Assembly (NCBI RefSeq): GCF_001636845.1
Contig: NZ_LITT01000046.1
Location: forward strand, 186,001-250,000
DNA length: 64,000 nt
Direction of reading: 5' to 3'
Source of the DNA: Clostridium ljungdahlii
GTDB lineage: Bacteria; Bacillota; Clostridia; Clostridiales; Clostridiaceae
The position numbers and the translations under genes were made by a program. Positions 149 to 23,218 of the stretch are shown here, piece after piece (position 1 is the stretch's first letter; each line of letters begins with the position of its first letter). Under the pieces are notes generated by a model. It was not told the origin of the DNA. It saw only the letters and a program-made list of their open reading frames with translations, and searched no databases.

Positions 149-1297
149 TCATATAAGATTTTCAACTAAATCCTTAAAGTACTTGCAGGTATTAGCTATA
201 CTATGTCCCTTTCTAAACAATCCTCCACCAATTAAAAATGCCACATCATCACCATAAGCCTTATAGGATTCTGGTATATTTTCAAGGTTCATTCCACCTG
301 AAGGGCAAGGAAGTATAGATTTTAATTTTCCAAATTCTTTTTTACAATTTTCAGAAACTCCAACACATTCCTCCCGGGAGAAAGAAAATCTACCTAAAAA
401 ATTAGGATAAATAGTAGCATCAGCTCCAGCAAGTCTTGCAATATCGCCAAATAATACCTTATGGGCTATACCTTCATTTCCTAGGACAAAGCTCCCCTGA
501 AATGCAGGATGACTTATAACTGGAAGGGCTATACTGTCATCATCTGCAACTTGTCTCATCGCATCAAAACCAGTAAGTCCAGGTGCAATCAAAACTCCTC
601 CAGCTCCAAATTTTTTCGCAATTCGTGCCCTATCTAAAATCTCACCTGCTGGTGCAGTTATATTTGGTACATATATTGTATTCCTACCTGTTTTATCATT
701 TGCCCTTTTTACAGCTTCGCTGCACAATTTAACTCTCTTTTCATAAGGACAGAAAGGTTGATTTGTAAGTCCGTGATCATCTTTTATTATATCAATTCCT
801 CCAACTGCAAATTCATATGCAATATGGGAGAGTTCCTCTGCACTCACTCCCATGGGCTTTAACGCTGTAAATAAAAGTGGCCTCTTAGGCACATTTAATA
901 ATTTTCTAATACCTTTTATACCAAAACGAGGTCCTTTAAAACTGTCAGTTATTTTTTTCGACAAATTAACTTTTTCAACCCTTACACCTGGCTTTATGCT
1001 TGTGTTTCCAAATATAACATTTATAAGTTGCGTAAGCTCATAGGCAGTAGCATCTTCAGGGTAACTTATATTAACCTGAAATACTCCCTCTTCTAATTTA
1101 TTAAAAGATTCTATTTTGCCAACTATGTTATCTTTTATTATTCCTTCTGGTACGACATCCTCTGGAAATTCCACTGTCTGTTCTATACATATATCCTGTG
1201 CTTTTCTATAGGCTTCTTTTTCATCTCCCTGTACTTTATATGTTACATTAAACCTTTCCTGTGGAAGCTTCAAATCACTTTTACCAGTAAAAAACAT
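149..1297 (-). CDS. RuBisCO-like protein (form IV), last gene of the SAM-regulated salvage operon
   Basis: A large-subunit RuBisCO fold of about 382 aa, without the hallmark of true carboxylases. Counted from an upstream GTG at 1309, the lysine of the KPxG segment (LKPMG, residue 151) is kept, but the second active-site lysine two residues later is Met. The metal-binding KDDE motif reads KDDH (residues 176-179), so the acidic ligand is His. These changes mark a form IV RuBisCO-like protein, which catalyses enolisation or isomerisation. Known relatives act on 2,3-diketo-5-methylthiopentyl-1-phosphate (MtnW) or isomerise methylthioribulose-1-phosphate. The ATG at 1297 is preferred because AAGGGGTGG lies 8 nt upstream; the GTG at 1309 falls inside that site. 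The gene follows mtnK, mtnA and a split transketolase, so a role in disposing of methylthioribulose- or 5-deoxyribulose-1-phosphate is inferred. Confidence 0.9.
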   Translation of the reverse strand: MFFTGKSDLKLPQERFNVTYKVQGDEKEAYRKAQDICIEQTVEFPEDVVPEGIIKDNIVGKIESFNKLEEGVFQVNISYPEDATAYELTQLINVIFGNTSIKPGVRVEKVNLSKKITDSFKGPRFGIKGIRKLLNVPKRPLLFTALKPMGVSAEELSHIAYEFAVGGIDIIKDDHGLTNQPFCPYEKRVKLCSEAVKRANDKTGRNTIYVPNITAPAGEILDRARIAKKFGAGGVLIAPGLTGFDAMRQVADDDSIALPVISHPAFQGSFVLGNEGIAHKVLFGDIARLAGADATIYPNFLGRFSFSREECVGVSENCKKEFGKLKSILPCPSGGMNLENIPESYKAYGDDVAFLIGGGLFRKGHSIANTCKYFKDLVENLI

Positions 1298-1320
1298 ACT
1301 TATTTCCACCCCTTTTAAAA

Positions 1321-2328
1321 TTACAACGCTTCTGCCTTAGCATCACTATGAACTGCTGCTACAAAAGCTTTGTCAAGATCTTCTTCCTTTATATTAAAAT
1401 TCTGTCCTACCAACTTTTCAACTTCTTCTATAAGAGCTTTTGCATCTATCCTATACTCTTTCATCAAATATTGTTTGCTGGCGCCATGGACAAAAGTATC
1501 TTTTATTCCTATTCGTACAAGTTTTTTTCCTATACCTCCTTCCGCTAATTTTTCAGCTACAATTGTGCCAAGTCCCCCAATTACAGAGTGATTTTCAATA
1601 GTTATTACACCATACTTTGATTTTGCTATAGCTTCAATTACCGAATGGTCATTAAATGGTTTTAAGGTGGATATATGCATATGCTGAATGGAGAGTCCCT
1701 TTTTCTTTAATTCTTTAATTGCCCTTATAGCTTCTTCCGTACATATACCGCTGGAAAGCACAACTACATCGCTTCCTTTACTAAGTACTCTTGCCTTTCC
1801 AAATTGCATAGGTTCTGAAGCCTTAAAGAGCCTTGGTATTTCGCCTCTTAACATTCTTATATAAGCAGGTCCATTAATAGCTTTTGCTACATCAAGAACG
1901 GATTCAACTTCAGTGGCATCCCCACACTCAAGTATAGTCATATTAGGAAGTGAGCGCATTACTGATATGTCCTCAATGGCTTGGTGCGTAGCTCCACCTG
2001 GAGATATAATTCCAGGTAAAAATCCAAACATTTTTACAGGTAAATTTGGATATGCCACAGACATAGCTATCTGATCATAAGCTCTCCTATATATAAAAAC
2101 TGCAAAAGTGTGAACAAAAGGTATAAAACCTTCTCTTGCAAGTCCGCCTGCAAAGCTCAACATATTTTGCTCCGCTATTCCCATTGAAAAAAACCTATCA
2201 GGATAGGTATCCCTGAAGGTATCAACTTCCACAGAACTAGTTAAGTCAGCAGATAAAACTAATATTTCAGGTTTATCCTTAGCCCATTTTATAAGATTCT
2301 TTGAATGTACTTTGGTTTCTATTTTCAT
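1321..2328 (-). CDS. Transketolase, C-terminal subunit (pyrimidine-binding and C-terminal domains)
   Basis: About 335 aa covering the Pyr and C-terminal domains of a split transketolase. The cofactor-activating segment GIAEQNML near residue 55 carries the conserved Glu that activates thiamine diphosphate. Transketolases of this two-gene type transfer a two-carbon ketol unit between sugar phosphates. The start is set at ATG 2328, nine nt after a perfect AGGAGG; a TTG at 2337 lies too close to that site. The gene follows its partner subunit within a few bases. Its place between mtnA and the RuBisCO-like gene, under a SAM riboswitch, suggests a dedicated substrate rather than the housekeeping pentose pathway. 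Split apulose-4-phosphate transketolases are the nearest characterised case of dedicated pairs. Confidence 0.9.
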   Translation of the reverse strand: MKIETKVHSKNLIKWAKDKPEILVLSADLTSSVEVDTFRDTYPDRFFSMGIAEQNMLSFAGGLAREGFIPFVHTFAVFIYRRAYDQIAMSVAYPNLPVKMFGFLPGIISPGGATHQAIEDISVMRSLPNMTILECGDATEVESVLDVAKAINGPAYIRMLRGEIPRLFKASEPMQFGKARVLSKGSDVVVLSSGICTEEAIRAIKELKKKGLSIQHMHISTLKPFNDHSVIEAIAKSKYGVITIENHSVIGGLGTIVAEKLAEGGIGKKLVRIGIKDTFVHGASKQYLMKEYRIDAKALIEEVEKLVGQNFNIKEEDLDKAFVAAVHSDAKAEAL

Positions 2329-2343
2329 AAACTTCAACCTCCT

Positions 2344-3270
2344 TTATTGAAACTTCTTACTCAATTTCTTGAATTCTCTTCTGTAACTTTCTCTTTCATC
2401 TTCAGTTTTAAATCTTACATAATGGAACTTAGGTTTTCTCTTATTTAGTATATTGATTCCCCTAGAAGGATTTGTATCACATAATATAAATGTAGGTCTT
2501 CCATCAGGTTTTAAATTTCCAAGGGCTGAAATAGCATCTACATCATGTCCATCTATTCTGAACACCCTGGCTCCAAAAGCTTTTAGTCTTTCATGGAAAG
2601 GTTCTATATTCATTACTGTAGTCATTTTTCCATCACACTGATATCCATTTATATCAACATAAGCTATTATATTATCTAGTTTGTGATAGGAAATAGCCTG
2701 TACTGCTTCCCAAAATTGTCCAGATTGACATTCACCATCAGATAAAAATACAACTACTCTTCCCTTCTCTTTCTTCAATTTACGTGCAAGGGCAATACCA
2801 CCTGCCTGGCTTATGCCCTGTCCCAAAGATCCTGTAGTAACCTCCATACCTGGAGAATGTTCTGCACCAATCATTTCAACAGAACTTCCATCCTTATTGA
2901 ACTCATCAAGACCAGAAGTATCCATACGTCCAACTTCTATTAGTGCTGCATATAGTACAAGTGCATACTGTGCTGGAGAAAGTATAAATCTATCCGTATC
3001 CTTCGATCTTTCTCCATTATATATGCCACCATTAAAATAACTTTTGTTATCAGGTCCCGGAGTACCAGGAAACTTTGGTGGAACAATAGGCTTTTCAACT
3101 TCATTTAAATTCAACACTTTTGAATAAAGAGTTGAAAGTATTTCTGCTGAAGAGCAGGCCTGACTCAAATATCCTCCATTGTTTTCTATAGTGTGTTTTA
3201 AAACTCTAAGTCTTATTCTGTTTGCCACTTTATAAACTTCATCTTCCCATGTATCCTTTAATTCTTCCAT
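2344..3270 (-). CDS. Transketolase, N-terminal subunit (thiamine-diphosphate-binding domain)
   Basis: 308 aa forming the PP domain of a split transketolase. Visible signatures are GSLGQGISQAGGIALA and the ThDP/Mg segment beginning LSDGECQSGQFWEA and ending with DINGYQ. The canonical GDG is SDG here and the second Asn of the metal site is embedded in DING. A clear AAGGAGG precedes the ATG at 3270. The gene lies 22 nt after mtnA and directly before the C-terminal subunit, so the two should be co-translated into a heteromeric enzyme. The substrate cannot be read from sequence; 1-methylthio- or 1-deoxy-xylulose 5-phosphate made by the neighbouring RuBisCO-like protein is a speculative candidate. 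Confidence 0.9.
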   Translation of the reverse strand: MEELKDTWEDEVYKVANRIRLRVLKHTIENNGGYLSQACSSAEILSTLYSKVLNLNEVEKPIVPPKFPGTPGPDNKSYFNGGIYNGERSKDTDRFILSPAQYALVLYAALIEVGRMDTSGLDEFNKDGSSVEMIGAEHSPGMEVTTGSLGQGISQAGGIALARKLKKEKGRVVVFLSDGECQSGQFWEAVQAISYHKLDNIIAYVDINGYQCDGKMTTVMNIEPFHERLKAFGARVFRIDGHDVDAISALGNLKPDGRPTFILCDTNPSRGINILNKRKPKFHYVRFKTEDERESYRREFKKLSKKFQ

Positions 3271-3292
3271 AACTTCCTCCTTAATAAGCTTT

Positions 3293-4342
3293 TTATAAGA
3301 TTTTCTTCAAATTTTCACTAAAAGGTGGATATACTATCCCCTTTTCAGTTATTATTGCCGTTATAAGTTCTTTATCCGTTACATCAAAAGCAGGATTGTA
3401 AGCTTTCACTCCTTCAGGTACCATAGGCTTTGTATACCACTTTGTAGTTATTTCCTTCTCAGGTCTTATTTCAATCTTTATGTCTTCACCACTTTTGCAA
3501 TCTAAATCTATAGTGGAGATTGGAGCACATACATAAAAATGTATGTTATAATATTTAGCAAGTATTGCCACAGAAGAAGTCCCTATCTTATTTGCAGTAT
3601 CTCCATTTGCTGCCACCCTGTCACATCCTACTAAAACTGCCTGTATTTTTCCTTCCTTCATAACAATGGATGCCATATTATCACATATCAGTGTAACATC
3701 CACTCCTGCCTGTTTTAATTCCCAGGTAGTAAGCCTTGCCCCTTGAAGCAGTGGTCTAGTTTCATCGGCAAATACTTTAAAATCATATCCTCTCTCATTT
3801 CCTAAATATATAGGTGCAAGAGCCGTACCATATTTAGCAGTAGCTATAGTACCTGGATTACAGTGAGTTAAAAGTCCAAAACCCGGCTTTAGAAGAGAAA
3901 GAGCATATTCTCCAATGGATTTACATACTTTTTCATCTTCCTTATATATGTTATCTGCTTCTTCCTTTAAAGCAGTTTTTATCTCAGCAATAGTATTTTT
4001 AGATTCTTTTTTCAACCTTTCTTCCATACGATTAAGAGCCCAAAATAGATTTACTGCAGTTGGCCTTGAAGATGCTAAATATTCCTTTGTATTTTTAAAA
4101 TGTTCATACAATTGTTCATAACTTTGTGGATCATATTTTTTTACAGAAAGATATATTTCATAAGCTGCAGTTATGCCTATGGCAGGTGCTCCCCGAACTT
4201 TAAGTTCATAAATAGCATTCCAGACATCTTTTTCAGTTTTTAATTCTATAAATCTTTTTTCTCCCGGCAGGAGAGTTTGATCAAGTATTATAAGAGAATT
4301 ATTTGCATCATCTAGAATTACAGATTGTATAATTTCTGACAT
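3293..4342 (-). CDS. mtnA: S-methyl-5-thioribose-1-phosphate isomerase
   Basis: 349 aa, the usual family length. It has the eIF2B-like isomerase fold with RGAPAIG at residues 50-56, the catalytic cysteine in THCNPG (C161) and the catalytic aspartate in GCDRVAANGD (D241), matching C160/D240 of the Bacillus subtilis enzyme. It converts methylthioribose-1-phosphate, or 5-deoxyribose-1-phosphate, to the corresponding ribulose-1-phosphate in the cytoplasm. A GAGGAG site precedes the ATG. It follows mtnK by 19 nt, the order in which the two enzymes act. No mtnB, mtnX or mtnD follows; a split transketolase and a RuBisCO-like protein do. Confidence 0.96.
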   Translation of the reverse strand: MSEIIQSVILDDANNSLIILDQTLLPGEKRFIELKTEKDVWNAIYELKVRGAPAIGITAAYEIYLSVKKYDPQSYEQLYEHFKNTKEYLASSRPTAVNLFWALNRMEERLKKESKNTIAEIKTALKEEADNIYKEDEKVCKSIGEYALSLLKPGFGLLTHCNPGTIATAKYGTALAPIYLGNERGYDFKVFADETRPLLQGARLTTWELKQAGVDVTLICDNMASIVMKEGKIQAVLVGCDRVAANGDTANKIGTSSVAILAKYYNIHFYVCAPISTIDLDCKSGEDIKIEIRPEKEITTKWYTKPMVPEGVKAYNPAFDVTDKELITAIITEKGIVYPPFSENLKKIL

Positions 4343-4361
4343 TTTTTCATCTCCTCATATG

Positions 4362-5585
4362 CTAAAACTTGTTTTCCGCATCTTTAATTACCTGTATAAA
4401 GTCTGCTCCACTTTTTACATTTTCTCTGTCCAATATAAACTTTTTCGAAGATAGAAGGCATATCTTTTCTGCCCTTGTTCTCTTTTCAATGTCTTTTATA
4501 GAAACTATATCGCTCACATGGGCAAGTCCAATGATTCTCCTTGCAAGTTCTAGGCCAACTACAGCTGAGGTATCCTTTAATATATTTCCTAAATAATATT
4601 CTAAGAAGCCCTCATAATTTGCCACCTTCTCGGAAACATTTTCTTTCCATAAAACTTTAAACTTTTTAGAAAATAAATCTATAATATCAATTATTGTAAC
4701 CTCCAGCCATCCTTTATAATCTTCCTTTTCTTTTTCAGCCAATATTGTAGCTTCTGCATTTTCATAAGCAAATATCAAATTTGCAATTACATTTCCAATG
4801 TCATAACCTGCAGGTCCATAAAAAGAAAATTCGGAATCAAACACCTTGGTGGAATCTGGTTTTACAAAAATTGAACCTGTATGCAAGTCTCCATGTATAA
4901 GAGACTGGGCATTTGTCATAAACTCAAATTTCAATTTTGCAGTTTCTAAAAGAAGTTTTTTATCATTCCACAAATTAGAGGCTGCAAATTTTTTTGTTTC
5001 AGGTAATAAATCGTTTCTTGGGCAATCATAAAAAGGCTCAGTATAAACAAGATCTTCTGTTATTTCACAGAGCTCTGGATTTATAAAATCTTTTACCAAT
5101 TCCTTTTTTTTCTTATGGTTTATTGCTGCGTCCGAAGTTAAAAGAAGAGTATTAACTAAAAACGTGGTAATATGCTCTGCAAACCTTGGAAATTTTTCAT
5201 GTTTATTTAAAGCTGTACACATTATTTCATAATCAGATAAATCTTCCATGGCAAAACAATTCATTACACTGTCATATTTATAAATTTTAGGTACAAGACC
5301 CCCAGAAAGCTTATATTGAAGCTCTAATATTTCACTTTCAATTCTGTTTCTATCCGGAGATACCTTAAATTCATCAGAAATTCTAGCTACAGGACCTGCC
5401 TGTTTAATTATTATGGATTTATTACTTTTTTTATCTTGAATTTTAAATACATAATTTAAATTTCCATCTCCTATTTCCTTAGAAGTAAGCTCTGCATTCC
5501 CATCAAAAAAATCTAACTGCAGTTTTGCATATTGGAGTACATCCTTTTCAGTCATTGTAAAATATTCATCTGTAAATTTACCCAT
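4362..5585 (-). CDS. mtnK: S-methyl-5-thioribose kinase
   Basis: 407 aa, full length for MtnK. The choline-kinase-like fold is shown by the catalytic loop HGDLHTGS (residues 231-238, catalytic D233) and the metal-binding DSEFSF (D250), the same numbering as the Bacillus enzyme. It phosphorylates methylthioribose at C1 using ATP, giving the substrate for MtnA. It sits 23 nt after the permease of a ribose-type ABC importer. The operon contains no MTA/SAH nucleosidase, so the sugar is probably imported or made by an enzyme encoded elsewhere. Expression is expected to fall when SAM is abundant, through the riboswitch at 9588-9699. Confidence 0.96.
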   Translation of the reverse strand: MGKFTDEYFTMTEKDVLQYAKLQLDFFDGNAELTSKEIGDGNLNYVFKIQDKKSNKSIIIKQAGPVARISDEFKVSPDRNRIESEILELQYKLSGGLVPKIYKYDSVMNCFAMEDLSDYEIMCTALNKHEKFPRFAEHITTFLVNTLLLTSDAAINHKKKKELVKDFINPELCEITEDLVYTEPFYDCPRNDLLPETKKFAASNLWNDKKLLLETAKLKFEFMTNAQSLIHGDLHTGSIFVKPDSTKVFDSEFSFYGPAGYDIGNVIANLIFAYENAEATILAEKEKEDYKGWLEVTIIDIIDLFSKKFKVLWKENVSEKVANYEGFLEYYLGNILKDTSAVVGLELARRIIGLAHVSDIVSIKDIEKRTRAEKICLLSSKKFILDRENVKSGADFIQVIKDAENKF

Positions 5586-5608
5586 CTTTCATATCTCCTT
5601 TCTCAAAA

Positions 5609-6610
5609 TTATTTCTTTTTATAATAAGTGAGAGCCAGTGCAAAGGCTAAAACTATACCTTTTACAATGTCCATTGCATAATATGGAACCGACAACATAA
5701 CAAGTCCATTTTGAAGTATTCCTATAAGAACTGCTCCTGCAAAGGTTCCAATGGCATTGGGTTTTCCTGACCCTCCTACAGAAAATCCTATAAATGTTGC
5801 TGCCACCGCATCCATAAGATAAGGTGAGCCCGCATTTATTTCTGCAGTTTGAACCCTTGCTGCCAGCATTATTCCTCCAACACCTGCAAGAAAAGCAGAT
5901 ATTAAATAGGCATATACCCTATACTTGTTTACCGGTATCCCAGAAAGTCTTGCTGCTTCCATGTTTCCACCAATAATGTACATATATCTTCCATGTTTGG
6001 TTTTAGTTAAAAATATGTGTACGATAAGAACTATAATTATCATTACTATAATAATCCAGGGAAGCTGTCCTAAGGTTGTAAACAATTGGGTGAGTTTACC
6101 TTTTGCAAAATTTCCATTTGCCATTACCATGTTCTGAGATATGGCAGCCCCCCTTGTATAAGTAAGAGCCACCCCTTGAAATACAAACATAGTAGCAAGT
6201 GTCATAAGCATATCAGGTACTTTCACTTTCACAATCATTATGGAATTTATAACTCCTACCACAAGAGATGCTAGTATGGCAACTATTATAGAAGTAACAC
6301 TATCCTGGTTATGCCATATAAACATGGCCATAACTACGGCTCCAGATAGTGAAGCAGTAGAGCCTACAGACAAATCAAATCCTCCTACAGTTAGAGAAAC
6401 TGTAACTGCCACTGCAATTATTGTAACAATGGAAATGGAACGCAGTATATTTACCACATTACTTGGCTCAAGAAACTTTCCTCCCATAATTCCAAAGAAA
6501 ATGATGAGCAGTCCGATTGTAATCAAAGTCCCATATTTATATAAAAAGTCAAATATATCAATTTTTTTCTTATCTACAGTTATATCATTTTTGGTGTTTT
6601 CACTACTCAT
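5609..6610 (-). CDS. Ribose-type ABC transporter permease, likely for methylthioribose or 5-deoxyribose
   Basis: 333 aa hydrophobic protein with about 8-10 membrane segments, of the RbsC/BPD_transp_2 family. It carries the family segments GGFDLSVGS near residue 75 and GGSGKPNAIGTFAGA near residue 280. It forms the membrane channel for the ATPase just upstream (3 nt gap) and the lipoprotein upstream of that. The family imports pentoses, hexoses and autoinducer-2. Co-transcription with mtnK and mtnA and SAM control make a sulfur-containing or deoxy pentose the most likely cargo; this is inference from context. Confidence 0.88.
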   Translation of the reverse strand: MSSENTKNDITVDKKKIDIFDFLYKYGTLITIGLLIIFFGIMGGKFLEPSNVVNILRSISIVTIIAVAVTVSLTVGGFDLSVGSTASLSGAVVMAMFIWHNQDSVTSIIVAILASLVVGVINSIMIVKVKVPDMLMTLATMFVFQGVALTYTRGAAISQNMVMANGNFAKGKLTQLFTTLGQLPWIIIVMIIIVLIVHIFLTKTKHGRYMYIIGGNMEAARLSGIPVNKYRVYAYLISAFLAGVGGIMLAARVQTAEINAGSPYLMDAVAATFIGFSVGGSGKPNAIGTFAGAVLIGILQNGLVMLSVPYYAMDIVKGIVLAFALALTYYKKK

Positions 6611-6613
6611 TTC

Positions 6614-8128
6614 CTACATTCCCCCTGTTGAATAATATAAAATATCTGATTCATTAGTTTCTGCCGTGTTTAATTCCTTTACTATTTGTCCATTATAAAT
6701 TACATAAATTCTGTCTGTAATACCCATGAGTTCAGATATTTCACAACTGGCATAAATTATCGACTTCCCCTTTTCAGCTAATCCTTCAATTAATTGAAAT
6801 ATTTCTTTTTTAGCACCTATATCCACCCCTTTTGTGGGTTCGTCAAAAATATAAACTTTAGTATCACTTACGAGCCACTTGCCTATAGCCACCTTTTGTT
6901 GGTTCCCACCAGATAAAAGCCCTACTTTCTTGTTTTCATCCAAAGTTTTTATATCTAAATCCTCTATTATTTCTCTTGCCTTTTTATTTTCATTTTCAAC
7001 ATCCAATACATTTCTAAATTTACAAAACTTATTTAAACTAGAAGAAGTAATATTTACAGCTATACTTTCTTCAATAAATACCCCTTGTTTTCTTCTCTCC
7101 TCAGGTATCAGTGCGATACCTGCATTTACAGCATCATAGGGAGATTTTATTTCTATCTTTTTACCCTCTATAATTTTATCCCCCGACACTGTTTTAGATG
7201 CTCCAAATATGGCATTGCAAAGTTCCGTCTTTCCTGCCCCTACAAGTCCTACTATTCCAACTATTTCACCGCTTTTTGCATATATATTTATATCTTTTAC
7301 TTTTTCTCCATCACTTAAATTTTTTATTTCTACTAATTTTTTTCCCGGCTTAATATGCTTTTTTTCATAGCTATTTTCAAAATTTCTGCCAAGCATATAC
7401 CCCACTATTTCTTTTTGACTGGTAGCTTGTATTTGTTTTTCCACTACAAATTTACCATCTCTCATAACTGTTACATCATCACATATGGAAAAAAGTTCAG
7501 GCAACCTGTGAGATATAAATATAATTCCTACATTTTGTTTTTTAAGTTCATCCACAATACTAAATAATTCTTTTATCTCAGAGGTACTTAAAGGTGCTGT
7601 AGGTTCATCCAATATTAAGAACCTGCACTTCATTGATATGGCTCTGGCTATTAATACCATCTGCTTCTGGGCAAGGGTAATTTCACTTATGAGTTTTTTA
7701 GTGTCAATTTCTATGTTGAGCTTTTTTAAAATTTTTTCTGCCCCATCATTTATATTCTTAAAATTTACAAACTGTTTTTTACCCATATGGTTTACTATAT
7801 TATCAAGCATTATATTTTCAGCTACAGATAAGTATGAAATAAGTGAAGTATCTACTTCCTGATACACAATTTGGATGCCCAGATCTTTTGCATCTTTTGG
7901 CTCTCCTATATGAACTTTTTCTCCAGCTATAAAAATTTCTCCAGTATAATTTGCATAAGCTCCAGACAGAATCTTCATAAGTGTAGATTTACCAGCTCCA
8001 TTAGCCCCTACGATAGCATGTACCCTACCTGCGTTAGTAGAAAAATTAACTTTATCCAGTACCTTTACTCCTGGAAATTCTATTGAAATATCTTTCATGT
8101 TTAAAAATGTACCTCTGTTCGTATCCAT
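6614..8128 (-). CDS. Ribose-type ABC transporter ATPase with two nucleotide-binding domains
   Basis: About 504 aa with two ABC domains in tandem, as in RbsA/XylG. The N-terminal domain has Walker A GANGAGKST and Walker B LILDEP. The C-terminal domain has the altered Walker A GLVGAGKTE, signature LSGGNQQK and IFDEPTKGVD. ATG 8128 is chosen because GGAAGG lies 7 nt upstream; the TTG at 8143 overlaps that site. It powers uptake through the following permease. It belongs to the SAM-regulated operon beginning with the lipoprotein at 9315. Confidence 0.92.
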   Translation of the reverse strand: MDTNRGTFLNMKDISIEFPGVKVLDKVNFSTNAGRVHAIVGANGAGKSTLMKILSGAYANYTGEIFIAGEKVHIGEPKDAKDLGIQIVYQEVDTSLISYLSVAENIMLDNIVNHMGKKQFVNFKNINDGAEKILKKLNIEIDTKKLISEITLAQKQMVLIARAISMKCRFLILDEPTAPLSTSEIKELFSIVDELKKQNVGIIFISHRLPELFSICDDVTVMRDGKFVVEKQIQATSQKEIVGYMLGRNFENSYEKKHIKPGKKLVEIKNLSDGEKVKDINIYAKSGEIVGIVGLVGAGKTELCNAIFGASKTVSGDKIIEGKKIEIKSPYDAVNAGIALIPEERRKQGVFIEESIAVNITSSSLNKFCKFRNVLDVENENKKAREIIEDLDIKTLDENKKVGLLSGGNQQKVAIGKWLVSDTKVYIFDEPTKGVDIGAKKEIFQLIEGLAEKGKSIIYASCEISELMGITDRIYVIYNGQIVKELNTAETNESDILYYSTGGM

Positions 8129-8163
8129 ATACACACCTTCCAAATTACTTTCAAATTCATATT

Positions 8164-9315
8164 TTATTTGCTGCTATGCTGACTTTTCAAAGTATCCATC
8201 CATGGCTCTTCAAAAGCATCTGATTTGCCCCAGCTTGGAATTAATTTTGATAAGTTCTCCATGTTGACAGCAGTACCTGAATTTACTATTTGATCTTTTT
8301 CCACGGATGATGCTTGAAGATCGTAATATTTTGGTGTTTTTTCTCCTGCTATCTTTTTAGTAAGAAGTCTTACATCTACATCACCTATAAGCTTTGGATC
8401 TACAGCTGTTGTAATTGTCCATGGACTGTTTTTATCTTGAATTGCCTGAAGGTCTGCATTTGATACATCTATACCATATACCTTTATTTCATTACGTCCG
8501 GCTTCTTTAACTGCCCTAGTTGCACCTATTGCAAAAGCGTCCCATGAAGCATATATAGCATCAATAGTTCCTTTAGGATGTTTTGCAAGCATTGCAGTTA
8601 CTGCGTTTTGTGTCTGAACTGAGGTATCAGATGATGCTACTCCAAATCTTTCAACTTCTTTTATATCAGGATATTTCTCAAGCATTGCCTTATACATTCT
8701 ATTTCTATTTACCATTGGTGCAAATCCATCAACCCAAAGATATATTATATTTGCCTTGCCGTTATGGTCTTGAACTAATTTTTTAAAGGAAGTGAGTGCT
8801 AAAGTTTCATCATCCTGTTCTGTTATAGTAATACCTTCTACCTTTGCTACTTCAGGATTAGAATCAAAAGTTACTACTGGCTTGCCTTTAGCTATAATTT
8901 TTTTAACATCATCTACAGTAGCACTATCATCACCATGGGATATTATAAAACCATCATAGTCTTTTTGAAGTGCCTGACTTATGGCATCATGAAATTTTAC
9001 ACTATCTCCATTGGCACTAAAAGTGTCCACTTTAAAACCTAAACTTTCCCCTTCCTGCTTTACACCTGCTAAGTATTGTGCTGTATTGTCATCTCCACCT
9101 ATTTTACGAATTACCATTATCTTTATCTGCTTACTAGAAATTTTAGATGGAACTTTTGTGCTGCCTGATTTTTTACTACTGCTATTTTGAGTATTTTGGG
9201 AACTCTGTGATTTAGAATTATTCGAAGTATTTCCACTGTCCTGGGAACACCCGGTAAAAGCAACAGCAGCTATTGTAAATAGCGCTAAAATTATAGTACT
9301 TATTTTTTTTCTCAT
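8164..9315 (-). CDS. Sugar-binding lipoprotein of the ribose-type importer (first gene of the salvage operon)
   Basis: 383 aa. A lipoprotein signal peptide ends in AFTGC, with the lipid-anchored Cys at 23. A Ser/Asn/Lys-rich linker (about residues 25-60) follows, then a periplasmic-binding-protein type 1 domain of the RbsB family. It would capture the sugar outside the membrane and deliver it to the permease. GAGGAG precedes the ATG. About 220 nt of leader after the riboswitch terminator contain a second strong hairpin (9408-9463) that must be passed before this gene. Substrate specificity is inferred from the neighbouring mtnK and mtnA only. Confidence 0.9.
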   Translation of the reverse strand: MRKKISTIILALFTIAAVAFTGCSQDSGNTSNNSKSQSSQNTQNSSSKKSGSTKVPSKISSKQIKIMVIRKIGGDDNTAQYLAGVKQEGESLGFKVDTFSANGDSVKFHDAISQALQKDYDGFIISHGDDSATVDDVKKIIAKGKPVVTFDSNPEVAKVEGITITEQDDETLALTSFKKLVQDHNGKANIIYLWVDGFAPMVNRNRMYKAMLEKYPDIKEVERFGVASSDTSVQTQNAVTAMLAKHPKGTIDAIYASWDAFAIGATRAVKEAGRNEIKVYGIDVSNADLQAIQDKNSPWTITTAVDPKLIGDVDVRLLTKKIAGEKTPKYYDLQASSVEKDQIVNSGTAVNMENLSKLIPSWGKSDAFEEPWMDTLKSQHSSK

Positions 9316-9407
9316 TTTTATACTCTCCTCTTTTTGAAATATAAATTTTTATTAGCTTTTATTCTTTGATTTTGCACCTCCCATATATGAATATTTTTAG
9401 TAAATAA

Positions 9408-9463
9408 AAAAGACCAAGCTTCATAAATATAGAGTTTTCTCTATAAATAAATGAAACTTGGTC
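9408..9463 (-). terminator. Second hairpin with T-tract in the salvage-operon leader
   Basis: On the minus strand an AGACCAAG(T/C)TTCAT stem pairs across an AT-rich apical region that itself contains TATAGAG/CTCTATA. It is followed by TTTTTTATTT, the form of an intrinsic terminator. It lies downstream of the riboswitch terminator and 100 nt before the lipoprotein gene. It may attenuate a second transcript, or protect or process the operon mRNA. Confidence 0.6.
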
Positions 9464-9485
9464 TCTAGTTTTTCTAGTCAACCAA
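9464..9485. repeat. CTAG-N5-CTAG direct repeat, copy 1
   Basis: The 22-nt TCTAGTTTTTCTAGTCAACCAA is repeated at 9732-9753 with one mismatch. Each copy contains the inverted repeat CTAG-TTTTT-CTAG. The two copies bracket the SAM riboswitch and its terminator. They could be operator sites or the scars of a local duplication of the promoter region. Confidence 0.6.
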
Positions 9486-9535
9486 TGCGTAATTATACTA
9501 TTCTATTTTGTACCCTACAATAAAACAATTTTTTA

Positions 9536-9574
9536 AAAAACAAAAAACTCCTCACAGAGAAAATGTAAGAAGTT
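9536..9574 (-). terminator. Riboswitch-controlled terminator of the salvage operon
   Basis: A perfect 11-bp stem (9546-9556 with 9564-9574, allowing G-U pairs) has a 7-nt loop. On the minus strand it is followed directly by TTTTGTTTTTT. It stands 14 nt after the SAM-I aptamer, the normal position of an S-box expression platform. SAM binding is expected to favour this terminator and shut off the importer/mtnK/mtnA/transketolase/RuBisCO-like operon. Confidence 0.85.
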
Positions 9575-9587
9575 ATATTCTATACTT

Positions 9588-9699
9588 TTCTCATCTCTCA
9601 GGTTTCTCCTGCTGGAATTAGCACCATTGAATACAATACATCGTATTCAGGTTGCTGGACATCATAGGGCCAGTCCCTCCGTCACTCTAGATAAGAATT
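9588..9699 (-). ncRNA. SAM-I (S-box) riboswitch upstream of the importer/mtnK/mtnA/RLP operon
   Basis: On the minus strand the S-box consensus is clear: P1 strands TTCTTATC and GATGAGAA close the element. Inside are AGAG...GGAGGGACTGGCCC, CAGCAACC and GGTGCTAATTCCAGCAG. These are the conserved core and kink-turn of the SAM-I class. It binds S-adenosylmethionine in the nascent mRNA and controls the terminator at 9536-9574. Confidence 0.97.
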
Positions 9700-9731
9700 C
9701 TTTATTCGATTATAAAGTTTAAATGCTAATT

Positions 9732-9753
9732 TCTAGTTTTTCTAGTCAATCAA
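9732..9753. repeat. CTAG-N5-CTAG direct repeat, copy 2
   Basis: Second copy of the 22-nt repeat described at 9464-9485, upstream of the riboswitch on the minus strand and so in the expected promoter region of the operon. Confidence 0.6.
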
Positions 9754-9981
9754 CAAACATGTAAAATAATTTATATATAATATACAATCTTTTATTTTTT
9801 TTGTCAACAAAAATTCTAATTTTTTCTGTTTAAGTATGATTGATTTGTGATAATGTCTTAGTATACCGCATATGATTATGTCCCAAATAAATAAGTTTAT
9901 AGTATAATAAAACCCCATTTCTTTCATTATAAAGTGTCAATAAATTAAAATTTTTTCAACTTTAATCTTTCAAAAAAACTA

Positions 9982-10011
9982 TTGACAACAGGACAATCTT
10001 GGTAGTATACT
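9982..10011 (+). promoter_or_regulatory. Sigma-A-type promoter for the permease/cyclase operon
   Basis: TTGACA at 9982-9987 and TATACT at 10006-10011 are separated by 18 nt. They lie about 20 nt before the SAM-I riboswitch at 10031. Confidence 0.75.
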
Positions 10012-10030
10012 ACTAAATAAATTAAATAAA

Positions 10031-10139
10031 ATCTTATCAAGAGAGGTTGAGGGACTGGCCCTATGAAACCCAACAACCAGCATTTTTCATTTGAATGTAT
10101 TGGTGTTAATTCCTGCAGATTATTTCTGATAGATGAGAT
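10031..10139 (+). ncRNA. SAM-I (S-box) riboswitch upstream of the permease/cyclase operon
   Basis: P1 strands ATCTTATC and GATGAGAT enclose the S-box core with GAGGGACTGGCCC, CAACAACCAG and GGTGTTAATTCCTGCAG. Much of the P2-P3 region is nearly identical to the riboswitch at 18525-18632, including the ATTTTTCATTTGAATGTAT segment, which points to recent duplication. Confidence 0.97.
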
Positions 10140-10208: not shown

Positions 10209-10312
10209 TATAAGATAAACCATTCGATTTGCGCAAATCAAATATTCTGATAAGATTTCCATTTGATTAATAAAAATACAAATAAAAACCTATTCGCTAA
10301 GGAGTGAACAGT

Positions 10313-11713
10313 ATGAGCAAAGAAAACTCTAAAGGCATTAATGCCCTTAAAAAAAATCAGCTTAATTTCGTAGAAGTTATTGCACTTTCAGTTGCAATAA
10401 TAGCACCTACTTTTGCTATGTCAATGAATGTAGGACTTATGGCATCAACAGTATCTTACTCTGTAAGTGCAGTATTTGTTATATCAACTATACTAATGGG
10501 CTTTGTAGCCGTATCTTTTATAAAATTCAATGAATATTTTCCATCTGCAGGTTCGGTTTATACATTTACAGAAAGATCTTTAGGTAAAAAAGCTGCCTCA
10601 ATATCAGGATGGGCTTTACTGCTTACCTATATAGGATTTTCTGCTGGATGTTCTTCTGCTTTTGGATCTCTTTTTTCCAGCTTTATTAAAGAATTAACTG
10701 GAGTAAGCATATCCTGGATTATATTTGCACTAATTTGCGAGGCGTTTATATGGTTTGTATCTTATAGTGATGTAAAATTAAGTACAAACATTATGCTTGT
10801 CATAGAAGCTGTATCAATTCTCCTCGTAATATTACTTTCAGTAGTCATTCTTGTAAAAGTTGGTTCAACAAAAGGATTAAGTTTAGTTCCTTTTAAAGGA
10901 AATGGAAATAAATTTTCAAATTATGGTGCTGGAATCGTATATGCAATACTATGCTTTGGTGGTTTTGAGGGGGCATCAAGTCTTGGTGAAGAAAGTAAAA
11001 ATCCTAAAAAATCAATACCTCTTGCAATTGCAAGTACAGTTGTTGTAACCGGACTTATATTCGTATTCGTAAGTTATGCTGAGGTTATAGGATTTGGAGT
11101 ATCGGCTTCAGGAATAGAGGCACTAACTAAGTCACCATCTACTATAGTAGACCTTTCTAAAAATTATATAGGAAGTGTATTTACTATATTAATTACACTA
11201 GCTATCAGTATTTCTGCTTTTTCAACTGCTTTAGGATCTATGACTGCAGGTTCAAGACTCCTATATTCAATGAGTAAAGATGGTAATGTTCCACAAATTT
11301 TTTCTCGCGTACACCCTAAACACCATACTCCTTATGTGGCATTAAACATCATACTTGCAATAATAATAATTCCTGTTTTAGCACTTTTTAAACATGATGG
11401 AGTAGAAGTATTTGGATATATAGGAACAATAGGTGCACTTGCATTACTTATTGCTTACTTTATAACAAGTTTAGGCTCACTTATATACTTTGGAAAGAAA
11501 AAAATATGGACTTGGCAGCTTATTATACCTGTTGTAGCTCTATTTGTTTTGGCATTCACCTTTTATTCAAATATTTATCCTATACCAGCCTTTCCTAATA
11601 ATATATTTCCTTATATAGTTTTGGTATGGATAATAGTAGGTTTTAGTATTACTTCTATTTATAAAAAAGGATCAGTTTTATCTGCAGCTTCTAAAGAGAA
11701 TGTTGCTAATTAA
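10313..11713 (+). CDS. APC-family amino acid permease under SAM-riboswitch control
   Basis: About 466 aa with roughly 12 membrane segments and the amino acid-polyamine-organocation fold. The first helix is VIALSVAIIAPTFAMS and helix 6 carries GFEGASSLGEE. AAGGAG lies 8 nt before ATG 10313; the GTG at 10304 is inside that site. SAM repression suggests that it imports a methionine precursor or derivative. The next gene, a cyclase-family hydrolase 33 nt downstream, probably works on the imported compound. Confidence 0.88.
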   Translation: MSKENSKGINALKKNQLNFVEVIALSVAIIAPTFAMSMNVGLMASTVSYSVSAVFVISTILMGFVAVSFIKFNEYFPSAGSVYTFTERSLGKKAASISGWALLLTYIGFSAGCSSAFGSLFSSFIKELTGVSISWIIFALICEAFIWFVSYSDVKLSTNIMLVIEAVSILLVILLSVVILVKVGSTKGLSLVPFKGNGNKFSNYGAGIVYAILCFGGFEGASSLGEESKNPKKSIPLAIASTVVVTGLIFVFVSYAEVIGFGVSASGIEALTKSPSTIVDLSKNYIGSVFTILITLAISISAFSTALGSMTAGSRLLYSMSKDGNVPQIFSRVHPKHHTPYVALNIILAIIIIPVLALFKHDGVEVFGYIGTIGALALLIAYFITSLGSLIYFGKKKIWTWQLIIPVVALFVLAFTFYSNIYPIPAFPNNIFPYIVLVWIIVGFSITSIYKKGSVLSAASKENVAN

Positions 11714-11746: not shown

Positions 11747-12481
11747 ATGACTAATAGTTTATGGAATACTTTAAATGATTTAAAAAAACACCAATGGGTA
11801 GATCTTACCCATGAATTTGGACCGGACACTCCAAGATTTGCAAGCTTTAATCCTGCAAAATTTGAAACTATTTTCACTCACAAGGATGGATTCTTTGTAA
11901 AACAATATACATTTGCAGGACAATACGGAACTCATCTTGATCCTCCAATACATTTTGCAGAAGGAGGAAGATACATTGATGAATTAGAACTTCAAGAACT
12001 TGTTTTACCTCTTGTAGTTATAGATCTTTCAGAGAAAGTAAAAGAAAATGATGACTACGTACTTACAGTAGAGGATATTTTAGAATGGGAAAAGCAATTT
12101 GGTAAAATACCAGAAGGTTCTTTTGTAGCATTTAGATCCGACTGGAGTAAAAGATGGCCTGATCAAGACAAATTTTTAAACCTTGATGAAAAAGGCGATG
12201 AACACTATCCTGGATGGTCATTTGATGCACTCAAATTCTTATATGAAACTCGCAAAATAGCAGCAAACGGACATGAAACTTTTGATACAGATGCACCAAT
12301 AGAACAAAAAATAACTGGATTTCAGGGAGAATATTATGTATTAAAAAAAGATCATTATCAAATTGAAGTTATGACCAATTTGGACAAAGTACCTCCAACT
12401 GGAGCAATAATCTTCAGCATAGTTCCTAAGGCTCAAAAGGCACCGGGTTTCCCTGTTCGTTCATTTGCTATTCTGCCTTAA
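11747..12481 (+). CDS. Cyclase-family (KynB-like) metal-dependent hydrolase
   Basis: 244 aa of the cyclase superfamily that includes bacterial kynurenine formamidase and isatin hydrolase. The metal-binding signature GTHLDPPIHF is near residue 67, with a further His and acidic residues around NGHETFDTDAP near residue 183. Family members hydrolyse N-formyl amides, lactams or lactones using Zn or Mn. A strong AAGGAGA site precedes the ATG. It is co-transcribed with the permease under a SAM riboswitch, and no tryptophan-degradation genes are near. A role in opening or deacylating a methionine- or homocysteine-derived compound is therefore more likely than kynurenine metabolism. The actual substrate is unknown. 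Confidence 0.82.
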   Translation: MTNSLWNTLNDLKKHQWVDLTHEFGPDTPRFASFNPAKFETIFTHKDGFFVKQYTFAGQYGTHLDPPIHFAEGGRYIDELELQELVLPLVVIDLSEKVKENDDYVLTVEDILEWEKQFGKIPEGSFVAFRSDWSKRWPDQDKFLNLDEKGDEHYPGWSFDALKFLYETRKIAANGHETFDTDAPIEQKITGFQGEYYVLKKDHYQIEVMTNLDKVPPTGAIIFSIVPKAQKAPGFPVRSFAILP

Positions 12482-18524: not shown

Positions 18525-18632
18525 ATCTTATCAAGAGTGGTGGAGGGACTGGCCCTATGAAACCCGACAACCAACATTTTTCATTTGAATGTATGGTGTT
18601 AATTCCAGCAGATTATTTCTGAAAGATAAGGA
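18525..18632 (+). ncRNA. SAM-I (S-box) riboswitch upstream of metA
   Basis: P1 strands CTTATC and GATAAG enclose AGAG, GGAGGGACTGGCCC, CCGACAACCAA and GGTGTTAATTCCAGCAG. The sequence is nearly the same as the riboswitch at 10031-10139, including the A/T-rich P3 region. Confidence 0.97.
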
Positions 18633-18821: not shown

Positions 18822-19739
18822 ATGCCAATAAATATACCTAATGACCTTCCAGCTTCTAAAACATTAAAAGCTGAAAACATATTTGTAATGAATGAAAAAC
18901 GTGCGTTAAAACAAGATATAAGGCCACTTAATATAGTCATATTGAATCTAATGCCGGTTAAAACCGTTACGGAAGTACAACTTTTAAGGTTACTTAGTAA
19001 TTCCCCTATTCAAGTTGATATAACATTAATGTATCCTAAATCCCACAGATCAAAAAATACTTCAGAACAATATCTTCTCAAGTATTATGAAACTTTTGAT
19101 GAAATAAAAGATAGAAAATTTGATGGTATGATAATAACAGGAGCACCTGTTGAAAAACTGAAATTTGAAGATGTTGACTATTGGAATGAATTGACTGAAA
19201 TAATGAATTGGAGTAAAAAAAATGTATATTCAACTTTACACATATGTTGGGGTTCTCAGGCCGGACTTTACCACCATTTTGGTATTCCAAAATATACTTT
19301 AGATAAAAAAATGTTTGGTATCTTTTCACATATAATAAATGAAGAAAATACACAGTTACTTAGAGGATTTGACGATATATTTTACGCACCTCATTCAAGA
19401 CATACCTGTGTAAAAAAAGAAGATATTGAAAAGGTACCTGAACTAGAAATACTTTCAGAATCAAAAGATGCCGGGGTCTATATAATCTCAACAAAAGGTG
19501 GCCGCCAAATTTTTGTAACAGGCCATCCTGAATATGATACCTTAACATTAAAATCAGAATATGATAGAGACGTAGCAGCTAATTTGCCCATAGATATTCC
19601 GAAAAATTATTTTCCTGGTAATGATACAACCAAACATCCTAAAGCAACTTGGAAAAGTCATGCCAACCTTTTATTTCTAAACTGGCTGAATTACTATGTA
19701 TATCAAGAAACCCCTTATAATTTGGATAGTCTTCAATAA
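18822..19739 (+). CDS. metA: Homoserine O-acetyltransferase (MetA type)
   Basis: 305 aa, full length. It has the catalytic Cys142 in HICWGSQAG and the His235/Glu237 pair in GHPEYDT, the residues of the MetA glutamine-amidotransferase-like fold. Residue 111, in GAPVE, is Glu. In this family Glu at 111 selects acetyl-CoA and Gly selects succinyl-CoA, so the product should be O-acetylhomoserine. This is the activated substrate for sulfhydrylation or cystathionine formation in methionine synthesis. AAAGGAGG precedes the ATG. A SAM-I riboswitch and terminator lie upstream, giving feedback by the pathway end product. Confidence 0.96.
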
Positions 19740-19839: not shown

Positions 19840-21375
19840 TTATTTAATAAGTTTATTCATATTTTCAGCAACATTTCTAAGTTCATTAATGTTGGCTTCT
19901 ATTTCTTCACTAGTGGCAGCATTTTGAGATATTGCTTCCGCTATCACTTCATATTTTGATATTGTATCTCTCGTCATATTTGATACTTCTTCATTAAATT
20001 GAGCTACATTTTTAGTTTTTGTAAATAATGTAGTAGAAGCGTTATTTATATCCATAATATTATTACTAAATAATTTCAAATTGGAAGTCATAACATTTAT
20101 TCCTTTGACTGTCTCATTAATAATACTATTACCAGTCTGAGACTTTTCGTTACTATGCGTCATTTGTTTTTCAACTACATCAATTTTATTTTTTAGTTCA
20201 TCCACTATTGTACTTGCTTGATTAAGTGATTGTTTTGTTCCTTCAGCTAATTTTCTTATTTCATCTGCTACTACTGCAAACCCCTTACCATTTTCACCTG
20301 CTCTTGCTGATTCAATTGATGCATTTAACGCAAGAAGATTAGTTTGTTCTGATATATTTCCTATAATATTTAATATCTCATATACTTGTCTTGATTTTTG
20401 TTTCAAATCTTTTGTAGACTTAAACGTATCCTCTATACTATTTTTTATATCCATAATAATTGAAAGAGTATCATTTAAAGATTTCTGATTTTTATCTGTA
20501 ATATTGATAAAATAATTTATTTTATCTTCACTATCCTTGGTTTTTATAGTAACAACCTCATTAGCATTTAATAAAGTATTTAATATTTCTTTATTCTTAT
20601 TTGATTTATCAAGCATTTCACCAGAACTTTTTGATACAGATTGACTTGTTCCTGAAACTTCTAAAAGTGAACTTGTTTGCTCTTCAATAGCTGCACTTAA
20701 GTTTTCACTTGATGATAAAACAGTACCAGAAATTTGAGCTATATTCCCAAATAAATCTAACAATTTTTGCTTTTCCTTTTTTAACTCAACTTCCTTATCA
20801 CCAATTGACTTTAATAGATTAGACGCAAAATATACAACTATGAAAATTAATGCCAAAGTTATAAAAATAGTGATGATTTTCATAGCCGCTTCTGCAATAA
20901 TCAATTGTTTATCTTGAAAGATTGAAGGATTATTTACAAATACTATGATTTGACATAAAAGGCTTAAAGCTATTGACTCTATAATCATTTTTATATCAAA
21001 AAACAAGGCTCCAAGAATAACGAAAAAGAAAACTATAAGCCACATGGAATTTAAGTGCATTGTAAAGTTCAAATATAAATACTGAAAATAAGTTATTATT
21101 AAAAGTACAATTTTTGTTATATTAAATGCTTTCATATTAAAGCCATTTTGAGTAATGATGCATTTATAACATTTATAAAATATAATACCATAAATTGAAA
21201 CAAATATTCCAAGCATAATTAAAGAAATCACACTTATGTTGTCATTAAGCCCAAGCAATTTTATTGAAGAATAAAATAAGAATGATAGAACACAGCATAC
21301 CATATAAATTATTAGCACAACTTTAAGTGATTTTTTATTAAAAGTTATTTGAAAGCTCTCTTCTTTAGTGTTCAT
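19840..21375 (-). CDS. Methyl-accepting chemotaxis-type transducer with a multi-helix membrane sensor
   Basis: About 511 aa. Some six membrane helices occupy residues about 20-195. A signalling domain (about 225-510) has the hairpin tip segment [36 protein letters not shown]-like core, typical of chemoreceptors that contact CheA and CheW. No large extracellular loop or HAMP domain is evident, so it may sense a membrane-related signal. ATG 21375 follows TTAGGGGG; the frame upstream to 21435 has no site. A c-di-GMP-I riboswitch lies in the long leader, tying expression to the motile/sessile switch. Confidence 0.88.
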
Positions 21376-21539
21376 TTTATGTCCCCCTAAATATATTAAT
21401 TTTTTTATATTTTTAAGTGCAAACTGAAATTTCATTTCAAATTTGCTTTTTCTGATAAAAACTTGAAAACTTTTACAAATTAAAAATGTACCTATTAATA
21501 CATAAATAGGTACCAGACTATAAGTATAAACAGATTTCT

Positions 21540-21782: not shown

Positions 21783-21872
21783 TTTGGTAACCTGGCAGTC
21801 ATAGAAAATAATTTCCTTTAGACCCATAGCTTTGCGACTTTATCTTTCGATAAATGTGCTATTATCAATGTA
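21783..21872 (-). ncRNA. Cyclic di-GMP-I (GEMM-I) riboswitch upstream of the chemoreceptor
   Basis: On the minus strand the GEMM-I landmarks are present in order. They are a GCACA entry, a stem capped by a GAAA tetraloop (TTATC-GAAA-GATAA), GTCGCAAAGC, GGGTCTAAAGG (tetraloop-receptor side), ATGACTGCCAGGTTACC, and closing AT-rich P1. It would bind c-di-GMP and control the transducer about 410 nt downstream. Confidence 0.85.
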
Positions 21873-22088: not shown

Positions 22089-22211
22089 TCCTTATCAAGA
22101 GAAACTTAGGGACTGGCCCTATGAAGTTTCAGCAACCTCATGTTTCGCCATGCGTAAACATGTAAAGGTGCTAATTCCAGCAGATCATAATAATTCTGAA
22201 AGATGAGGGAG
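22089..22211 (+). ncRNA. SAM-I (S-box) riboswitch upstream of the QueG-like gene and permease
   Basis: P1 strands TCCTTATC and GATGAGGGA enclose the S-box core AGAG, TAGGGACTGGCCC, CAGCAACCTCA and GGTGCTAATTCCAGCAG. The P3 hairpin differs from the other two plus-strand copies. Confidence 0.96.
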
Positions 22212-22251
22212 AGATGTTTTTTTAATAAACTCTCGTAATAACTTATGCTAT

Positions 22252-22289
22252 TTATCCTCTTCTTTTTGGGAAGAGGATTTTTTATTTTT
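22252..22289 (+). terminator. Expression-platform terminator of the fourth SAM-I riboswitch
   Basis: ATCCTCTTC pairs with GAAGAGGAT and is followed by TTTTTTATTTTT, about 40 nt after the aptamer. Confidence 0.88.
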
Positions 22290-22310
22290 CAGTAAAAAAT
22301 TCATGAATTT

Positions 22311-22369
22311 AAAATACATTACTTAAAGAGAGGAAGTGAATAATGTATTTTTGCATATTAAAATACATT
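22311..22369 (+). repeat. Three-part inverted repeat around the ribosome binding site of the QueG-like gene
   Basis: AAAATACATT occurs at 22311-22320 and 22360-22369, and its exact reverse complement AATGTATTTT lies between them at 22342-22351. The middle copy can pair with either side. Pairing left places GAGAGGAAGTG in the loop; pairing right places an 8-nt loop just before the ATG at 22380. Two exclusive hairpins are thus possible in the leader. Confidence 0.7.
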
Positions 22370-22379
22370 AGTACAAATT

Positions 22380-23179: not shown

Positions 23180-23218
23180 CTATATGTTTTATTGTTAGAC
23201 AAAAGGAGGAAGTTTAAA

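Follow-up and report, generated by a model that had tools for sequence, protein, structure and literature searches.

We report that an eight-gene operon of Clostridium ljungdahlii combines the entry enzymes of methylthioribose salvage with a RuBisCO-like protein (RLP) and a split transketolase (TK), and that, judged from its sequence, it appears to be a new variant of anaerobic methionine and 5-deoxysugar salvage. The operon occupies positions 149–9315 on the minus strand of a 64,000-nucleotide stretch of contig NZ_LITT01000046.1 (positions 186,001–250,000; hereafter the window). The oxygen-dependent end of methionine salvage is closed to anaerobes, and the anaerobic exits known to us need either a thiol-dependent cupin or an aldolase. 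The RLP–TK operon is real and widely conserved, and we found no described pathway that explains it. The open-access literature, as far as its text was available, yielded no description of an RLP–transketolase pair in sulfur or deoxysugar salvage, which is weak evidence of absence as subscription papers lay mostly outside reach; in a 2021 microcompartment catalogue, the word transketolase is absent from the main text.

The eight open reading frames (ORFs), all on the minus strand, are separated by 3–23 bp. The first three encode an ATP-binding cassette (ABC) sugar importer, which suggests uptake from outside: an RbsB-like substrate-binding protein (8164–9315; PF13407, 114.8 bits), a probable lipoprotein whose N-terminus resembles, by eye, a lipoprotein signal; an RbsA/AraG-like double ATPase (6614–8143; PF00005); and an RbsC-like permease (5609–6610; PF02653, 141.3 bits). 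They are followed by mtnK, for methylthioribose kinase (4362–5585; TIGR01767, 432.6 bits against a cut-off of 275), and mtnA, for methylthioribose-1-phosphate isomerase (3293–4342; TIGR00512, 427 bits against 279), both of which exceed the curated NCBIfam equivalog cut-offs. The last three genes encode TKN, the thiamine diphosphate (ThDP)-binding half of the split TK (2344–3270; PF00456, 80.8 bits), TKC, its pyrimidine-binding and C-terminal half (1321–2337; PF02779, 111.2 bits; PF02780, 73.1 bits), and the RLP, of the DeepYkr type with a KDDH motif at residues 176–179 (149–1309; PF00016, 119.5 bits). An S-adenosylmethionine (SAM)-I riboswitch, or S-box, aptamer lies at 9588–9697 on the minus strand (RF00162, 88.8 bits, gathering threshold 44.4), just beyond the interval 149–9315 first ascribed to the operon. 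The ORFs, the family matches and RF00162 thus agree with an earlier note on this DNA, which had described a single minus-strand operon of importer, mtnK, mtnA, both TK subunits and RLP behind an S-box.

In all probability the RLP is the 1,3-isomerase already described for the DeepYkr clade. Its nearest solved relative by sequence is the R. palustris RLP 3qfw, not MtnW, Photo RLP or RuBisCO, and although six NCBIfam models of the MtnW/RuBisCO type match it, it reaches the cut-off of none. The motif reads KDDH in place of KDDE, with H179 standing where eight of eight outgroup rows carry Glu. Conversion of methylthioribulose-1-phosphate (methylthioribulose-1-P) to 1-methylthioxylulose-5-P is the reaction of this clade according to the biochemical report (PMC5893883), which gives turnovers on methylthioribulose-1-P of 1.3 per second for RLP1 of R. 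palustris and 1.2 per second for the RLP of R. rubrum, and records a ribulo epimer as an additional product of the R. rubrum enzyme. A Calvin-type RuBisCO operon was rejected in view of the RLP lying far under the RuBisCO cut-offs; phosphoribulokinase was not searched for.

A profile of seven RLPs was run against contigs from one genome per species, covering 84,980 species. At least 398 stretches matched, and the locus counts below (L numbers) cover the best 80 of these, many of them metagenome-assembled genomes (MAGs), with up to 10 kb, often less, of flank examined per locus; since only the best 80 were kept, they are biased toward window-like RLPs. Sixty of the 80 loci have TK genes beside the RLP (TKC in 59, TKN in 54), and seven others (L044, L049, L052, L053, L054, L077 and L082) have a cupin of ≈145–150 residues no more than 1.2 kb from the RLP; in five of the seven both genes share a strand. 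Among solved structures, the L053 cupin matches Rru_A2000 of R. rubrum best (E = 1.4e-41), and the other six were assigned by their 43–72% identity to the L053 protein. Rru_A2000 is a 1-methylthioxylulose-5-P sulfurylase (PMC4958253). No locus has both TK and cupin, nor does any position of the RLP alignment tell TK types from cupin types at the thresholds used; of 82 columns near-invariant in the TK types, the cupin types show no variation in 74 and 3qfw agrees in 70. On a quick tree of the RLPs, in which the 3qfw branch is long, the cupin label requires four changes, at least two of them forced by starred branches.

The simplest reading of these sequence patterns is that TK and cupin are alternative consumers of one intermediate, 1-methylthioxylulose-5-P. 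Because the two never share a locus and no column divides the RLP types, the TK would replace the cupin while the RLP keeps its known role. That the RLP forms 1-methylthioxylulose-5-P, as the earlier note had proposed, is very likely and strongly supported by the R. palustris relative, the columns held in common with cupin-partnered RLPs and the literature on the clade. In L044 and L053 the cupin has a neighbour that was considered as a methylthioadenosine (MTA) phosphorylase and rejected as ThiF/TcdA-like (L053 tested).

The usual partners of such genes, as far as they were searched for, are missing from the operon, as the earlier note had also claimed, and from the genome. The host genome (4.36 Mb in 65 contigs) holds no cupin like that of L053 or Rru_A2000 at E ≤ 1e-15, and the operon has no class II (Ald2/FucA-type) aldolase beside its kinase and isomerase; MtnC and MtnD were not searched for. 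The class II aldolase domain PF00596 has a single match in the genome, over 134 of 183 positions of the model, in a 148-residue ORF within an apparent polysaccharide gene set. The same search returned, beyond this ORF, no MtnB dehydratase, which we take to be a PF00596 protein.

By sequence, the RLP-linked TK is a distinct family. TKN has the transketolase fold, and the ThDP-binding residues are retained (E56 in 57/57, H118 in 58/58 and H283 in 54/54 members; rows with a gap are left out of all residue counts). Four active-site positions differ, for which we assume the numbering and roles known from yeast TK. In TKN, His30 is Tyr in 54 of 54 RLP-linked TKs (canonical His, 20/20), and the His103 column holds Met in 48 and Leu in 5 of 53 (canonical His, 21/21). 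In TKC, His469 is Leu (canonical His, 21/25) and Asp477 is Gly (canonical Asp, 23/25), each in 58 of 58. The canonical set comprised up to 25 split TKs, drawn from the best TKC matches (L130–L153) and the host's own; it is mixed, with some rows carrying Ala or Asp at the S383 and H466 columns as in sulfofructose enzymes. The four changes in the RLP-linked family would make the donor pocket less polar, suiting a methylthio or methyl group at C1.

Further differences accompany these four. SDG replaces GDG in all 54 RLP-linked TKs scored, a change reported to be harmless in the M. tuberculosis TK (PMC3352088). An arginine near the TKC N-terminus, found in 25 of 25 canonical enzymes, is not kept, and the next position holds Lys or Arg in 53 of 56; R161 and R164 are conserved in 59 of 59. 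An invariant His138 lies near the His103 site and could compensate for the lost histidine. The GG-x-L stretch of TKN is closer to that of the host's DXS than to canonical TK. His69 was rejected as a diagnostic residue because the family has 29 His and 24 Gln there.

Some observations temper this picture of the active site. The host encodes, besides a canonical split TK and DXS, a second TK-like pair that also has Gly at Asp477 and keeps the three histidines, so that Asp477 alone is not diagnostic. A profile alignment sets His103 opposite an invariant Ile and Asp477 opposite a gap, differing from the other alignment; the loss of His103 and Asp477 is thus robust, but the identity of the replacing residue is not. 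The His103 region, loop 130–137 of TKN, is predicted with low confidence in a structure of a single subunit without ligand.

The association of this TK with the RLP extends well beyond the window. In a census of 391 genomes of the window's class, the host's own included, a TKC of at least 73% identity occurs in six, the remaining matches listed being at most 43% identical, and the same six carry an RLP of at least 56% identity. The nearest named relative found, Clostridium drakei, has an RLP 93% identical to the window's and, likewise behind an S-box, the whole operon with its gene order unchanged (L036). The order TKN-TKC-RLP on one strand is found in 53 of the 80 loci, and in 50 of these the genes lie within 300 bp of each other, with wider gaps in L064, L075 and L086; L115 has TKN alone, on the opposite side of the RLP. 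The fuller order mtnK-mtnA-TKN-TKC-RLP recurs in L036, L038, L075 and L076, and importer-like genes (at least 30% identity) lie near the TK–RLP genes in L036, L065, L070, L075, L088, L094, L112 and L113. The 60 TK-flanked loci span 12 named phyla, one record having no phylum, and include one archaeal genome, the Lokiarchaeota MAG. The cassette is thus not unique to this strain, a possibility the earlier note had raised, and chance or strain-specific clustering was rejected on the strength of the 391-genome co-occurrence and the 60 flanking loci. The Lokiarchaeota MAG of L076 has the window's gene order at 4571–10136, for which transfer or a binning error is possible.

These findings bear on whether the TK serves the usual pentose-phosphate pathway and is in the operon only incidentally, as its fold and ThDP residues, both those of a transketolase, would allow. 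We regard this as very improbable: every RLP-linked member scored differs at the four active-site positions, close TKC and close RLP occur in the same six genomes, and the host has a separate canonical split TK. A housekeeping role was rejected on the last of these grounds together with the active-site changes; the earlier note had named ordinary pentose phosphate exchange as what would speak against its proposal.

Our best explanation, to which as a whole we give slightly better than even chances, runs from uptake through isomerisation and TK cleavage to the remaking of methionine. The operon would import methylthioribose, and probably 5-deoxyribose too, and salvage it without oxygen. MtnK and MtnA, whose family assignment is firm, would produce methylthioribulose-1-P, and the RLP would shift the carbonyl to give 1-methylthioxylulose-5-P. 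The split TK would take this compound as donor and cut it between C2 and C3, yielding glyceraldehyde-3-P and a two-carbon unit on ThDP; this step we consider probable. Because such cleavage of a ketose with SCH3 at C1 leaves an enamine beside a thiolate, β-elimination to acetyl-ThDP is plausible. The enamine would lose methanethiolate as phosphoketolase loses hydroxide, so that an acetyl group remains, as acetyl-P or acetate, and S-box-controlled MetY would then join methanethiol to O-acetylhomoserine to form methionine. β-Elimination of a ThDP enamine to an acetyl group is known from phosphoketolase and sulfoacetaldehyde acetyltransferase, which offer a precedent and belong to different families. 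Expulsion of methanethiol is the likeliest version of the last step, and its chances are about even. 5-Deoxyribulose-1-P, handled by the RLP and TK in the same way, would pass through 1-deoxyxylulose-5-P to glyceraldehyde-3-P and acetaldehyde.

Sulfur genes of the host bear on the fate of the thiol. An S-box (18525–18632, plus strand; RF00162, 85.7 bits) precedes metA, of the homoserine O-acetyltransferase type (18822–19739, plus strand; NF047918, 506.1 bits, cut-off 460.5), which would supply the co-substrate of MetY and belongs with the operon to one SAM regulon. MetY itself is encoded elsewhere in the genome with an S-box upstream (TIGR01326, 678.2 bits, cut-off 495.1), and a nucleosidase, MtnN (NF004079, 288.5 bits, cut-off 169), would provide methylthioribose to MtnK. 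In L086 a metY gene lies 148 bp upstream of TKN; among the cupin loci, MetY is found near the RLP in L052 and as a contig-edge fragment in L054. Since the host has S-box-controlled metA and metY and since MetY adjoins TKN in L086, release of methanethiol is a better fit than a thio-C2 unit with no further use; on this point the proposal of the earlier note, which had a two-carbon thio or deoxy unit as product, is refined.

The same genes weigh on the main rival proposal, that the TK frees or transfers the C2 unit intact, converting 1-methylthioxylulose-5-P to glyceraldehyde-3-P and (methylthio)acetaldehyde or its adduct with an acceptor aldehyde, with a carbon outcome much as in the dihydroxyacetone phosphate (DHAP) shunt by another route. 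Transketolases ordinarily transfer a C2 unit, and in the Anaerolineae locus L094, with counterparts in L088, an acetylating-type aldehyde dehydrogenase stands among bacterial microcompartment (BMC)/EutN shell genes (PF00936, PF03319) before TKN, which suggests an aldehyde product there; the L094 enzyme scores 535.7 bits with TIGR02518, under the cut-off of 620, and that of L088 is 75% identical to it. EutN genes also lie near the cassette in L083, where the shell genes are at a contig edge, and in L113 (L113:17925–18233). Against an intact C2 unit, the S-boxes on the operon, metA and metY and the MetY beside TKN in L086 point to methanethiol as the form in which sulfur is recovered, and the window operon has no aldehyde dehydrogenase among its ORFs; we judge intact release unlikely, at perhaps one chance in four.

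A still less probable alternative, which we rate as rather improbable, is that the true substrate is 5-deoxyribose, derived from the 5'-deoxyadenosine of radical-SAM enzymes, with methylthioribose incidental. The RLP would then form 1-deoxyxylulose-5-P and the TK would cleave it in a DXS-like manner to glyceraldehyde-3-P and an acetaldehyde-level unit. Known gene clusters, of which some include transporters, use relatives of MtnK and MtnA on 5-deoxyribose (PMC6079011); the aldehyde dehydrogenases of L088 and L094 and the DXS-like GG-x-L stretch point the same way. However, the kinase and isomerase lie far above the methylthioribose cut-offs, though these models may admit deoxyribose enzymes, SAM riboswitch control suits sulfur limitation, and the cupin partner in seven related loci resembles a demethylthiolating enzyme.

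Besides the aldehyde dehydrogenases of L088 and L094, several observations count against methanethiol salvage by this cassette as a general scheme. A MetY above its cut-off adjoins the TK in a single TK locus, L086, where TKN is 2.7 kb from TKC; pyridoxal phosphate (PLP) enzymes of L056 and L109 were considered as MetY, passed no cut-off and are not assignable. In a riboswitch scan of 18 relatives, 16 of them TK-type, an S-box precedes the cassette in L036 only, and one lies downstream of it in L056. Class II aldolase-like genes accompany mtnK in L065 and L113, where the TK route may coexist with an aldol route, and mtnK falls inside the flanks in only 7 of 80 loci. Genome G015 of the class has an RLP of 50% identity without an RLP-linked TK, and in 13 of the 80 loci the RLP lacks both kinds of partner, TK and cupin. 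One of the 13, L096, has only 348 bp upstream, too short for TKC; the other 12, with at least 1 kb, are real exceptions at the locus, and the partner genes may lie elsewhere in the genome.

Elsewhere, MTA-phosphorylase-like genes directly follow the RLP in L041 and L069 and lie 3.9 kb on in L106; they pass the cut-off of NF006599, a thioinosine phosphorylase model, fall just short of that of TIGR01694, and would serve substrate supply without MtnK. In L075 a ribulose-P 3-epimerase gene directly follows the RLP and would, by analogy with the R. rubrum enzyme, rescue the ribulo epimer. More tentatively, and with somewhat less confidence than in an even proposition, we suggest that the RLP branch of methionine salvage has a third way out, common to many lineages, through a dedicated ThDP enzyme: the TK would act on 1-methylthioxylulose-5-P as a thiol-eliminating "methylthio-phosphoketolase", with glyceraldehyde-3-P, methanethiol and an acetyl group as products, possibly inside a microcompartment in some Anaerolineae.

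The wider set of loci shows some additional features. In the Anaerolineae loci L083, L088 and L094, TKN-TKC-RLP stands right behind BMC/EutN shell genes, perhaps marking an undescribed kind of microcompartment. A protein of 376–400 residues is encoded directly 3' of the RLP in L065, L070, L083, L088, L094 and L097, its gene overlapping the RLP stop codon in L083, L088 and L094, and farther off in L075, L096 and L113; it has a weak solute-binding match to PF01547 (L094 tested) and no evident signal peptide, and is a possible extra part of the system. In L085 and L103 an RLP without TK or cupin lies beside an ABC sugar importer and kinase-like genes, which without a family search look like DhaK/DhaL and FGGY kinase; the RLP may be put to a different use there.

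Upstream of the operon, a promoter-like site matching the consensus at 11 of 12 positions (TTGACA-17-TATATT; 9779–9807, minus strand; a consensus match only) lies 5' of the S-box. Between the aptamer and the substrate-binding protein gene are two minus-strand hairpins with T-tracts: a terminator-like hairpin directly after the aptamer (9546–9574), identified by sequence search and predicted fold, and a second, long hairpin followed by a T-run (9412–9463; predicted fold). The window has four S-boxes in total. One (10031–10139, plus strand) is divergent from the operon and precedes an amino acid permease (10304–11713) and a PF04199 cyclase (11747–12481) that is arylformamidase-like, below cut-off and an odd companion under SAM control. 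Another (22089–22209, plus strand) opens a region (22089–24721) with a 206-residue ORF lacking a Pfam match (22380–23000) and an amino acid permease-like ORF. A T-box (27791–28042, minus strand; 93.2 bits, barely above gathering) heads a region (24802–28042) with a methyltransferase-like ORF, a cystathionine gamma-lyase-type protein (596.1 bits, cut-off 594) and a cysteine-synthase-like ORF, and a c-di-GMP-I riboswitch (21783–21870, minus strand) lies upstream of a chemoreceptor-like ORF (19840–21435).

If this explanation is correct, the TK–RLP pair, found in 12 named phyla, would be a main alternative anaerobic exit of salvage. It would bring a new reaction to ThDP chemistry, assign a large set of proteins labelled only transketolase and RuBisCO-like by family, and pinpoint one origin of the methanethiol (or acetaldehyde) of anoxic environments.

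Among known systems, the MTA-isoprenoid shunt of Rhodospirillum rubrum and R. palustris, with its DeepYkr RLP and the Rru_A2000 cupin, is alike in the MtnA step and in the type of RLP (shared columns, KDDH), and the intermediate 1-methylthioxylulose-5-P is probably common to both. The window operon differs in having a split TK instead of the cupin and in its entry by MtnK, not MtnP. The DHAP(-ethylene) shunt and 5-deoxyribose salvage share entry by kinase (or phosphorylase) and isomerase, transporters in some clusters and a C2 + C3 split. Unlike them, the window operon has no class II aldolase, and its split, coming after 1,3-isomerisation, would give glyceraldehyde-3-P rather than DHAP.

Compared with the canonical split TK of Carboxydothermus hydrogenoformans (6yaj/6yak), the RLP-linked family is changed at His30, His469, Asp477 and the His103 site and has ≈27 extra residues near positions 60–88. 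TK chemistry on 5-deoxysugars from SAM by-products has been described for a promiscuous TK in 5-deoxyadenosine salvage. In the available text of that report (PMC8102628), 5-deoxyribose is the acceptor for the S. elongatus enzyme, giving 7-deoxysedoheptulose, the step suggested for M. jannaschii splits 5-deoxyribulose-1-P into lactaldehyde and methylglyoxal, and neither an RLP nor a dedicated split TK is described. The 6-deoxy-6-sulfofructose transketolase SqwGH is likewise a split TK recruited for a sulfur sugar in anaerobes. According to that work (PMC11659671), its head-group His, the equivalent of His469, is also replaced (H466 to D), and the authors tie the replacement to substrate choice. 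SqwGH differs in having no RLP and in transferring a non-sulfonated C2 unit that leaves the sulfur on the aldehyde side.

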